Assembly (NCBI GenBank): GCA_021774735.1
Contig: JAJFIS010000046.1
Span: 62,001-126,000 of the forward strand
DNA: 64,000 bases
Direction: 5' to 3'
Source: Alphaproteobacteria bacterium
Lineage (GTDB): Bacteria; Pseudomonadota; Alphaproteobacteria; Sphingomonadales; Kordiimonadaceae
Positions 9,584-64,000 of this stretch are shown here, piece by piece (the stretch's first letter is position 1; every line of letters starts with the position of its first letter). The notes below the pieces were generated by a model. It saw only the letters and a program-made list of their open reading frames with translations, did not search any database and had not been told where the DNA came from. A program made the position numbers and the translations under genes.

Positions 9584-9819
9584 CTACCCCAACCCAAAAA
9601 ATTACAGCTTAAGATCGCACATGCGACAGAAAAGGTCACTGAATAAGTAATTTGACAAATTTTAGGACTTACAAGGGATATATCAAGTTATGGTAATTGT
9701 TTATTGCGGTGCAGTATGATACAAAGCGAGCAATTGTTGTTAAGGCATTGCTTTTAGTGCCTTTATGATACCTTCCGCATCACAGCAAACCTCTTATTGG
9801 GCAGGAATATTACATTCTT

Positions 9820-59584: not shown

Positions 59585-61123
59585 TCAACTATCCATTAAG
59601 CTAGAAAAGCAATTCTGCAAACTAGCTGGAATGGCATCTAACAAATCAGAGGCAATCATCCCCGGAGAATAATAGCTCGCAGCTTGACCATGCAGCCATC
59701 CCCCCCGAGCCGCAGCTTCAAACGCCGGCATCCCCATTGTCAGCCCTGCTAAAATTAAACCGCTCAATATATCACCGGTTCCGGCAACATTTAGCCAATG
59801 TGGTGCCGAGCTAGCTATCGCCGCTCTACCATCTACGGAGGCGATTATAGTGTCAGGTCCTTTTAGAACCACCACTGCCCCAAGTGATTTAGCGGCTTCG
59901 CGGGCCGCGCCTATTCTATCCGCTTTATAATCAATATCAGAAAACAACCCGCAGAACTCACCCTCATGAGGGGTTATAACCGTTTCAGCCTTTATAGCGG
60001 CCACCATACTGTGCCTTGCGCCATAAAATGCATAAAGCGCATCAGCGTCTAGAACAGAGGGGCGTCCAAGCTTTAAAAGCGATAAAATAGTTTCGGCTTG
60101 CTCACCGCCCCGCCCCAACCCCGGCCCAATGGCAATAGCCCGGTAGCGCGGCTCAGCCTCGACCATCCCAACCAAGGCACTATTAGATATTACATCTTGG
60201 ACCAAAATATCACTCAAGGAACTAGCTTGAACAGCATAGGTATCACTAGATGCCATCAGACTAACAAGCCCGGCCCCTGCCCTGAGTGCAGCCATAGCTG
60301 TTAGCCTGCTAGCCCCAAGCGTGGGTTTTTGCCCGCCTATAACTACTGCATGACCACGGTCATATTTATGGGCTTCCTCTTGCCAGAGCGGTAAAGCCGT
60401 TTCATCCCACATTTGGGGACAGCACACGAATATAGAAGATTGAATATCAGCTAGTTTGTCTAAATTTATGCCAATATCCTCAACATGTAAGTGCCCACAT
60501 TTATGTTTCCCGGGACGTAAATAATGCCCCGGTTTAGCGCGGCAAAAAGTTACTGTTTCGGCAGCCTCAAAACATATTCCCATGACCTGCCCGTTATTAC
60601 CGTTCACCCCAGAAGGCAAATCAACCGCCAAACGCAGAGCATTGCTTTGGTTTGCCGCCGCTAAAATTTCGGCCACTATGCCTGTTACATTTCGGCTAAG
60701 GCCAGCGCCAAATATGGCATCTATTATAACGGCACTGCCATCAATAATAACCGGATCAAATGGAATGAGGTCGCCGCTCCACCGCTCATATGCTATTGCA
60801 GCATCGCCTTTCAACGCGCTAGGTTTGCCAGCCAAGGCAACACGCACCGGTATATTTCGCCTAGATAAAAGTCGGGCCGCAATGAAACCATCACCGCCAT
60901 TGTTACCGGGACCACATAGGATAAGAATGTCTGCACCCTTTGAAAGGATTTGCTCAGCGTCTGATTCCAGCCCAAGCCATAACCTGCCAGCATGATCTGC
61001 CACATGGGCACCAGCGCGTTCCATAAGGTCAATTCCAGCTGTTCCACCTTTAATGGTTAGCGCATCCGCCTTAGACATTTCACATGGGGTCAATAATTGG
61101 TGTAAATCCGCTGATATAGGCAT
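59585..61123 (-). CDS. nnr: Bifunctional NAD(P)H-hydrate epimerase / ADP-dependent NAD(P)H-hydrate dehydratase
   Basis: This enzyme repairs hydrated NADH and NADPH. The N-terminal YjeF_N domain (about 1-210) is the epimerase, with GPGNNGGDGFIAARLL. The C-terminal ribokinase-like domain (about 225-505) is the dehydratase, with GPGLGRGG, PSVLDADALYAF, TPHEGEF and the catalytic-loop AGTGDILSGLI. I choose ATG 61123 (MPISADLHQL) with AGGAGA 8-9 bp upstream; the frame is open to 61174. Product 512 residues. In many alphaproteobacteria it also neighbours glnB. Confidence 0.95.
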   Translation of the reverse strand: MPISADLHQLLTPCEMSKADALTIKGGTAGIDLMERAGAHVADHAGRLWLGLESDAEQILSKGADILILCGPGNNGGDGFIAARLLSRRNIPVRVALAGKPSALKGDAAIAYERWSGDLIPFDPVIIDGSAVIIDAIFGAGLSRNVTGIVAEILAAANQSNALRLAVDLPSGVNGNNGQVMGICFEAAETVTFCRAKPGHYLRPGKHKCGHLHVEDIGINLDKLADIQSSIFVCCPQMWDETALPLWQEEAHKYDRGHAVVIGGQKPTLGASRLTAMAALRAGAGLVSLMASSDTYAVQASSLSDILVQDVISNSALVGMVEAEPRYRAIAIGPGLGRGGEQAETILSLLKLGRPSVLDADALYAFYGARHSMVAAIKAETVITPHEGEFCGLFSDIDYKADRIGAAREAAKSLGAVVVLKGPDTIIASVDGRAAIASSAPHWLNVAGTGDILSGLILAGLTMGMPAFEAAARGGWLHGQAASYYSPGMIASDLLDAIPASLQNCFSSLMDS

Positions 61124-61201
61124 AAACTGCTCTCCTGCAACCATCATCATAGCTGGGTGCATTTGCGTCAACAAAATATACGAATATTACATGTGAAGAA
61201 A

Positions 61202-61279
61202 TGGGGCGAGTGACGGGACTTGAACCCGCGACATCCAGAATCACAATCTGGCACTCTAACCAACTGAGCTACACCCGCC
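61202..61279 (-). tRNA. tRNA-His (GTG) with encoded G-1
   Basis: A 78-nt cloverleaf. Acceptor GCGGGTG/CACTCGC is preceded by G-1 (61279) and faces discriminator C73 (61205), with encoded CCA. The anticodon loop TTGTGAT gives GTG. G-1:C73 is the canonical bacterial histidine identity pair; most Rhizobiales/Rhodobacterales/Caulobacterales lack it. Confidence 0.97.
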
Positions 61280-61412
61280 ATTTCCAAAAGGCGGCTCTGT
61301 TTATGCCCGCTTGCTTAAAAGGTCAAGTATCTAAATTATTTCTGGCTAAAAATATCTACTTTATCACTAATTAATATCACCAATTACGCAGTTTGCCCAT
61401 TCAGTAATCACT

Positions 61413-61429
61413 TGCCTATTTTTTGGGCA
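61413..61429 (+). promoter_or_regulatory. NtrC-like site 1 upstream of glnB
   Basis: TGCCTATTTTTTGGGCA is a 17-bp imperfect palindrome close to the NtrC consensus TGCACC-N5-GGTGCA: the outer TGC/GCA match and both central arms are near matches. It lies about 86 bp upstream of the sigma-54 promoter. Confidence 0.5.
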
Positions 61430-61445
61430 TTAGCTTTGCCCCATA

Positions 61446-61462
61446 TGCCTATTTTTTGAGCT
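61446..61462 (+). promoter_or_regulatory. NtrC-like site 2 upstream of glnB
   Basis: TGCCTATTTTTTGAGCT repeats the first 13 bases of site 1 exactly. The spacing from site 1 is 33 bp, close to three helical turns, as expected for cooperative activator binding. Weaker match at the right arm. Confidence 0.45.
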
Positions 61463-61513
61463 CTCGGCAATCATTCTTCGTACTTTAAGCAGGGTTTTTG
61501 CGCAGTGTTAAGT

Positions 61514-61529
61514 TGGCATATACTGTGCA
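61514..61529 (+). promoter_or_regulatory. Predicted sigma-54 promoter of glnB-glnA
   Basis: TGGCA ... TGCA with GG at 61515-61516 and GC at 61527-61528 separated by exactly 10 bp, matching the -24/-12 sigma-54 consensus. It lies about 45 bp before the glnB start codon. Together with the NtrC-like sites this supports nitrogen-limited control of glnBA. Confidence 0.7.
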
Positions 61530-61538
61530 TATAAATAG

Positions 61539-61910
<372 letters not shown>

Positions 61911-61981
61911 AGAAGACTGTTATTACTTTGAAAAGATAATCAAGCACCACCTAAAATTACCCTTAAAGAGAGATCATTATT

Positions 61982-63406
61982 ATGGCCAAATACGAAAATA
62001 TGACCCCACCAGAATTCCTGAAGCTCGTGAAAGATTTAGACGCTGATTGGATCGACTTGCGCTTCACTGATGTTAAAGGAAAATGGCAAAATTTGACCAT
62101 GGACGCGGAAGTGGTGGATGAAGACATGCTGGCTGACGGCATCATGTTTGATGGGTCCTCCATTGAAGGTTGGAAAGCCATTAACGAATCAGACATGGTT
62201 TTATCACCTGATCTATCGTCTGTTACATTTGATCCCTTTACCGCTGACACGACATTGATCGTGAACTGTGATATTTTGGAGCCCGGCACTGGTCAACCCT
62301 ATAACCGTGACCCTCGCTCCACTGCCAAAAAAGCTGAGGAATACCTTAAATTCACCGGTGTAGGCGACACCGCCTATTTTGGCCCTGAGCCTGAATTTTT
62401 TCTCTTTGACGATGTGCGATTCCGCGTTGGCTACGATGGTGCTTCTTATAAAATTGACGATATAGAAGGTCCCTATAATAGTAATCGCCGCTATGAGCAG
62501 GGCAACACCGGCCACCGGCCTATGGCTAAAGGGGGCTATTTCCCAGTTGCACCGGTGGATAGCTGCCAAGATATTCGCGGTGAAATGGTCAAGACAATGA
62601 AATCTATGGGCTTGACAATGGACAAGCATCACCATGAGGTTGCTGCCTCCCAGCATGAGCTCGGCATGACTTACGCGACCCTTACCGAGACCGCAGACCG
62701 GGTACAGGTCTATAAATATGTCACGGCGATGGTTGCCCATACATACGGTAAAACAGCGACCTTCATGCCGAAGCCCGTGGCCGATGATAATGGCTCAGGC
62801 ATGCATGTTCATATGTCAATATGGAGGGAAGGCAGCCCGCTATTTGCAGGAGCGGGATACGCCGACCTTAGTGATACGGCGCTATATTATATTGGCGGCA
62901 TTATAAAACATGCCAAAGCCCTGAATGCTTTCACTAACCCAACCACCAACAGTTATAAACGTTTGGTGCCGGGCTTTGAGGCCCCTGTGTTGCTTGCTTA
63001 CTCAAGCCGTAACAGGTCTGCATCTTGCCGCATACCTTATGGCAGCAGTCCCAATGCCAAACGGGTCGAAGTCCGCTTTCCTGATGCTACGGCGAACCCT
63101 TATTATGCTTTTGCAGCAATGCTGATGGCTGGCCTCGACGGCATTGAAAATAAAATTCACCCAGGTGACGCAATGGACAAAGACCTATATGCCCTTCCAC
63201 CAGAAGAATTAGCCGGTGTACCAACTGTCGCGGGGTCACTGAAAGAAGCTCTTGATGCGCTGGACGGTGATCGTGATTTCTTGAAAAAAGGTGATGTATT
63301 TAATGATGACCAGATCAATGCCTATATCAATTTAAAACGTGCTGATGTTTCACGCTTGGACATGACACCCCATCCTGTAGAATTTGAAATGTATTACAGT
63401 TCATAA
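61982..63406 (+). CDS. glnA: Glutamine synthetase type I
   Basis: Glutamine synthetase joins ammonia to glutamate using ATP. The 474-residue GSI-beta has [10 protein letters not shown], the metal and substrate motif [10 protein letters not shown], the catalytic [16 protein letters not shown] near 265-280, and [17 protein letters not shown]. The adenylylation site is Y403 in [10 protein letters not shown], so activity is probably controlled by GlnE. It is about five residues longer than most. The start is ATG 61982; a purine-rich AAAGAGAGA lies upstream. Confidence 0.97.
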
Positions 63407-63431
63407 TAGATTATAAAACAACTATTAGCTA

Positions 63432-63461
63432 CAAAAAGGCTTCATTCTGGTGGAGTCTTTT
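63432..63461 (+). terminator. Terminator of glnA
   Basis: AAAAAGGCT and AGTCTTTTT pair (one G-U) around a 12-nt loop and end in a six-T run, 27 bp after the glnA stop. Confidence 0.7.
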
Positions 63462-63519
63462 TTGTGCAATCAAAAGATAATACTGTTAAGTAGCTTGAAT
63501 CATCAGTGATGAAAACACG

Positions 63520-63640
63520 AAAAAAGGTCGGAAGTCAAAGACTTCCGACCTAAAGTCGAGATCCATTGGGTAGGACTGCCTCATAGTGAGGCAAGACCAA
63601 CTTGCCTAAGTTGGCGTAATAAATCAACAATAAAATACTA
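63520..63640 (-). ncRNA. Candidate structured small RNA downstream of glnA
   Basis: On the minus strand three hairpins follow one another. The first is CCAACTT/AAGTTGG (63597-63614), a 7-bp stem. The second is TGCCTC/GAGGCA (63577-63593). The third is a perfect 12-bp stem, AGGTCGGAAGTC with GACTTCCGACCT (63525-63551), followed by six T residues, a textbook terminator. An unpaired stretch with CCTACCC lies between the second and third. A TATAAT hexamer on the minus strand at 63646-63651 could be its -10 (weak -35), giving an RNA near 120 nt. No open reading frame lies here. It does not match a family I can name; the family assignment is open. Confidence 0.6.
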
Positions 63641-63842
63641 TTTTTATTATAAAAAATTTCTGTATGCACTATATTAAGCGCAATTATATTTCAATAAGAT
63701 AGGATAAGTCTGTGTAATTCAGAATTTATCCACTGATTTGATTAACTTTCATCTTCATGTAATTATATTTCACAATGTTAAAAGCAAAGCCAAGAGAGGA
63801 ATGTTTATCATCCATTAATATTATCATGTTAAATCCTTTTAT

Positions 63843-64000
63843 ATGACACAAATAGCTCTCGATGAAATTCAATTATCCATTCAGCCATTGCTGGCGCCTG
63901 CCAACATTAACCCGTCTAGTTTTCTAGCGACTGATTACCTGAACCATTTTAATGAGATCGTCATGATGCTTGAAATGGTGCCGGACATGCCAGATATGAT
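63843..64000 (+). CDS. Partial hypothetical protein (N-terminus only)
   Basis: An ATG at 63843 opens a frame that runs past the window end, with at least 52 residues. It begins MTQIALDEIQL and contains ATDYLNHFNEIVMMLEM and the PDMPDM tail. I recall similar FLATDYLNHFNE proteins as conserved hypotheticals in alphaproteobacteria, function unknown. Codon use resembles the neighbours. The partial length prevents domain assignment. Confidence 0.7.
   Translation, partial: MTQIALDEIQLSIQPLLAPANINPSSFLATDYLNHFNEIVMMLEMVPDMPDM

Follow-up and report, generated by a model that had tools for sequence, protein, structure and literature searches.

The window analysed here is a 64,000-nt stretch of a contig from the family Kordiimonadaceae. 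Near its end, a 436-nt gap separates glnA from the gene of a conserved 193-aa protein with no Pfam match. On the minus strand of this gap, between glnA and parE and reading towards glnA, lies a series of hairpins closed by an intrinsic terminator (Table 1), within which no noteworthy open frame was seen. This terminator is not that of glnA, because glnA has its own, and no minus-strand gene that it could end lies just upstream. This agrees with the first-pass annotation, which saw no convergent gene in need of it. The 193-aa protein (L062:2844-3425, from window position 63844) has the C-terminus SQADIDALFD / SQEDIDKLFD, which resembles the tail by which CheZ or FliM binds CheY. Upstream of its gene, relatives have a conserved TTTAC..TTTTTGGCAA or TTTAAC stretch.

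Table 1 Features at the glnA end of the window (RNA letters for hairpins; positions are those of the window)
Feature	Position	Strand	Description
glnA	61982..63406	+	Convergent neighbour of the sRNA; Pfam PF00120/PF03951
Terminator of glnA	63433..63462	+	Separate from the sRNA
U run of the sRNA terminator	63519..63524	-	TTTTTT in DNA, six U
Intrinsic terminator stem-loop	63525..63551	-	12 bp, perfect
Small hairpin GUCC-UACCCAAU-GGAU	63561..63576	-	Weak, 4 bp; putative anti-Shine-Dalgarno loop
Hairpin H2, UGCCUCA-CUA-UGAGGCA	63577..63593	-	7 bp; equivalent of the family 5' hairpin GCC..GGC
Hairpin H1, GCCAACUU-AGGC-AAGUUGGU	63596..63615	-	8 bp including one G-U, loop AGGC
sRNA body (span of model R1)	63519..63618	-	Fold z score, R1 homologues at the same locus, window-free profile; 5' end putative
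TATAAT, possible -10 box	63646..63651	-	No recognisable -35; candidate promoter element
Gene of conserved 193-aa protein (start)	63844..64000	+	Divergent neighbour of the sRNA; parE next, beyond the window

The 171-nt fold of this region reached -53.4 kcal/mol compared to a mean of -31.9 kcal/mol for shuffled sequences (z = -6.2, 0 of 200 shuffles), and its terminator is the strongest within positions 60000-64000. Stacked minus-strand hairpins and a perfect terminator after glnA had been noted from the letters alone, and this description holds: all three stems could be located, although the list had left out the weak 4-bp loop hairpin. An H1/H2 switch, in which AGGCAAG pairs with CUUGCCU, could form but would be less stable (-9.8 versus -16.2 kcal/mol). 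The TATAAT taken for a promoter is present, but there is no -35 box 16-18 nt upstream, and it was missing from the output of the promoter scan.

BLASTN of the sRNA against relatives and 296 genomes of the order recovered only the query itself and no second copy; homologues came instead from a structure model. A covariance model with the window sequence as its sole input (R1) was run on 42 named loci surrounding the gene of the 193-aa protein (213 kb) and gave three matches at E ≤ 5, with actual E values of 5e-6 to 1e-5. These were from Iodidimonas muriae, strain Q-1 and the MAG J084, all located after glnA on the opposite strand. R1 matches elsewhere in the family or class were ordinary gene terminators and were rejected. 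Two members, from G040 and G039, were added through a shared motif, and a second model from six sequences including the window (R2) matched 75 of the 296 order genomes at E ≤ 0.01, many of them weakly. Members were confirmed by reading the R2 matches and the exact pattern GCNATCCTCCCCAARG in context, giving 16 besides the window copy, in 15 of the 296 order genomes.

Of the 296 order genomes, 25 contained the exact core pattern; confirmed members came from 15 of these, and a reversed control pattern had zero matches. Nine pattern matches in the order (for example, in G044, G117 and G025) lacked both promoter and terminator and were set aside as chance. A scan of 385 genomes from across the class yielded two matches to the pattern, one inside the order and one outside it (G399), in both cases with neither promoter nor terminator; the outside match was likewise attributed to chance. 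No confirmed member was found among approximately 380 other alphaproteobacteria. Based on these searches, the glnA-parE sRNA family appears to extend across a single GTDB order, the one comprising the Kordiimonadales and Sphingomonadales groups, and would be so far unlisted.

Family members share a layout in which a hairpin GCC..GGC is followed by a small hairpin RUCCUCCCCAARGAU, a short spacer, often ACU or ACUU, and the terminator. The same order is present in the window copy. Across the 17 members, 93% of pair cells were standard compared to 29-55% when the alignment was slid, and double changes occurred in 12 of 19 pairs, values for pairing and double changes that no shuffle reached, although fitting the alignment to the model inflates the pairing counts. 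The compensatory changes that had been proposed as a check are found across relatives. They include all ten modelled pairs of the terminator helix and support the 5' hairpin and the terminator, not the small loop hairpin. A profile HMM (nhmmer) built from the 16 other members, with the window left out, matched the window copy at 63594-63519 (E = 6.1e-10), the next best match in the window having an E value of 3.3. By this profile, the window copy carries the C-rich core in an inexact form (GUCCUACCCAAUGGAU), with one change inside the C-rich stretch: the small hairpin is AUCCUCCCCAARGGAU in the family, and its CCUCCCC is CCUACCC here. The loop hairpin still closes by G-U, and H2 is longer than the relatives' 5' hairpin.

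What homologues conserve is H2, the small loop hairpin and the terminator. H1 and the TATAAT, which had been treated as defining parts, are not conserved; H1 was seen in the window genome only, where it occupies the site of the homologues' -10 region. The proposal of a real sRNA gene at this locus is well supported by comparison: other families have homologues in the same position, stems show compensatory changes, and the loop is conserved.

Seven of the 17 members, the window copy included, closely face glnA, and an eighth (G261b) is placed within the glnA-parE interval. A further six adjoin parE in divergent orientation, and amtB flanks three of those six on the opposite side. The remaining three are elsewhere (G033, G070 and G261a). 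The G033 member (L188), away from glnA and parE, has intact promoter dyads. In G105, the amtB 3' UTR after glnK-amtB carries TTCCTCCCCAAGGAA and a terminator (L197:1501-1572), and is perhaps a 3'-UTR-derived version of this sRNA.

Loss of the stems in relatives had been named as evidence against the element, and the outcome was mixed. No RNA like that of the window was found at the glnA loci of 25 other Kordiimonadaceae, yet the element is kept in more distant relatives. At these 25 loci, the glnA terminator is present and the gap to the 193-aa gene is mostly 140-215 nt; the few with larger gaps were also without the sRNA. The RNA is therefore dispensable there. One of the genomes without the element is G004, the partner of the window in a GlnA tree, so that several losses, or a gene tree departing from the species tree, must be assumed.

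The location next to glnA had been taken as a hint at nitrogen control, a link of position only; the homologues' promoters point instead to PhaR, the repressor of carbon storage as PHB. In most homologues, two repeats spaced 20 nt apart create a -35/-10-like arrangement, TTGCAA-N17-CAATAT, directly ahead of the 5' hairpin. Both repeats are YGCRNYGCR dyads matching the PhaR (AniA) site of Sinorhizobium meliloti, where PhaR bound the mmgR promoter in EMSA, mutation of the palindromes abolished the shifts, and mmgR is PhaR-repressed (PMC12542648). With a weight matrix made solely from 17 sites in promoters efficiently bound by S. meliloti PhaR in EMSA, 15 of the 16 homologue promoters scored 9.6-24.1 at the fixed positions of these repeats. 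The dyads are typical of the family, not defining, as member G261a is also without them. It looks from these promoter sequences as if PhaR controls the sRNA genes of most relatives.

Neither the family promoter nor a PhaR dyad was found at the window copy, where the best score across the whole gap was 4.2. The best PhaR-like dyad of the window lies at 9699-9719, upstream of gltX and gltA; its score of 13.8, just under that of the weakest EMSA site, is a weak hint that PhaR may work in this genome. By sequence comparison, the window copy appears to be the odd one out, with another promoter, an extra hairpin and a changed loop. Given the promoter loss and the one loop change, its control and targets probably differ from those of its relatives, or the copy is decaying.

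We consider it likely that the locus holds the gene of a trans-acting sRNA, a diverged member of an order-wide family usually found in the glnA-parE interval. By analogy, the RNA most likely acts in trans, depends on Hfq and occludes ribosome-binding sites: hfq is encoded in the window genome, the RNA would bind Hfq like SuhB and MmgR, and its C-rich loop would pair with the Shine-Dalgarno regions of mRNAs encoded elsewhere, reducing their translation. No target of the window sRNA was found. The glnA start region was rejected as a candidate (duplex energy rank 21 of 54 start regions), and the best duplex in the window, at the start of comEC (-25.7), is a prediction only. In most homologues, the transcript would begin with the 5' hairpin, and PhaR, bound to the dyads that overlap the promoter, would block transcription until PHB granules titrate the repressor away. 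In the window copy, with the family promoter gone, transcription, if any, would come from further upstream and add H1. More tentatively, the family may be suhB-related yet distinct, repressed by PhaR and released when PHB accumulates, and may relay the status of the carbon store, from its position in the glnA-parE interval, to the translation of selected mRNAs, with promoter and pairing sequence rewired in the window's genus; we regard this fuller account as a possibility somewhat short of even.

Three other readings were weighed against a working sRNA gene. The least probable, which we would be surprised to see borne out, is that the element is a mere set of terminators stopping antisense transcription into glnA from the divergent region. 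Its placement between convergent transcription units and the strong terminator at its end would suit such a role, but a terminator needs neither the conserved RUCCUCCCCAARGAU loop nor the 5' hairpin nor a promoter, and members also occur beside parE, away from glnA. A larger share of belief, while still a minor one, goes to a decaying relic of a real family, a gene that has lost its promoter and pairing site and is disappearing like its counterparts in the rest of the Kordiimonadaceae. The missing ancestral dyads, the CCUACCC in place of CCUCCCC and the absence of the element beside glnA in 25 other Kordiimonadaceae agree with decay. The perfect 12-bp terminator, a 7-bp 5' hairpin exceeding that of relatives, a loop hairpin that still closes with G-U and a whole fold far from random argue against it.

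The element could also be a true suhB/MmgR (RF00519) orthologue, or a recent copy, that has drifted under the Rfam threshold. As the first-pass annotation had proposed, an Rfam covariance search was made, and it returned no match for the window sRNA at threshold. The best sub-threshold match was RF00519, full-length at 63599-63511 with 24.8 bits against a cut-off of 41, which favours orthology. Among 12 Sphingomonadaceae genomes checked, an above-cut-off suhB and the glnA/parE type never occurred together, which also speaks for this reading. Six of the weaker R2 matches in Sphingomonadaceae are RF00519 above the cut-off (46.7-54 bits); most of these copies adjoin a cdc48-like ATPase gene, and five of the six have a PhaR-like dyad similar to those of the present family. 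However, a canonical suhB (47.1 bits) is encoded at another site of the window genome, and the two types likewise coexist in six further genomes (G030, G033, G039, G040, G050 and G054). Differences from the canonical form extend to core motif, promoter and locus: where RF00519 has the core UUUCCUCCCU adjoining its 5' hairpin, the window copy has AGUCCUACCCA. This pattern of coexistence and exclusion suggests two related types, and we judge orthology or recent copying unlikely, less so than a terminator set and more so than decay.

Two side observations concern these searches. The Sphingomonadaceae suhB copies L199, L200, L202, L203, L204 and L207 begin GCCUUUCAGGC-AUCCUCUCC and mostly have PhaR-like dyads; suhB in Kordiimonadales-type families differs from them in form and promoter. 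Sub-threshold Rfam matches to BjrC68 (cut-off 39) were seen at L196:181-253 (38.1 bits), at the 3' end of glnA, and at L223:1456-1505 (23.6 bits).

Read as a working sRNA gene, the locus adds a conserved sRNA family overlooked by current Rfam models. This family has a usual locus and a regulator that can be predicted, and it belongs to sphingomonads and Kordiimonadales, a group with few sRNAs studied. It also opens direct tests, of PhaR binding to the family promoters and of mutual replacement of the two SuhB-like types.

Three known systems resemble the family in part. NfeR1 (alpha-r14) is an anti-Shine-Dalgarno sRNA that S. meliloti links to nitrogen and NtrC (PMC10746234), with three hairpins that each have an anti-Shine-Dalgarno loop (PMC7143759). 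The window sRNA would be of this general type but has only one C-rich loop. SorX of Rhodobacter (RF02784) had no match in the window; the best homologue, in G039, matches the full model with hairpin, CCUCCC and terminator at 37.7 bits, under the cut-off of 46.6. SorX is cut from the ompR-1 3' UTR (PMC8625941), whereas the present homologues are transcribed from a putative promoter of their own and typify the glnA-parE locus. Closest is SuhB/MmgR (RF00519, alpha-r8), whose known members are Hfq-dependent trans sRNAs (PMC7143759, PMC6563040, PMC12542648); in Sphingopyxis, the 61-nt SuhB is Hfq-dependent and binds the thnR 5' UTR (PMC6563040). Shared features are the small 5' hairpin, the C-rich anti-Shine-Dalgarno stretch, the ACUU spacer and the terminator, together with a PhaR dyad in the S. 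meliloti mmgR promoter as in most members of the present family. The present family differs in that its core forms a small hairpin in place of the RF00519 core and in that its locus is separate.
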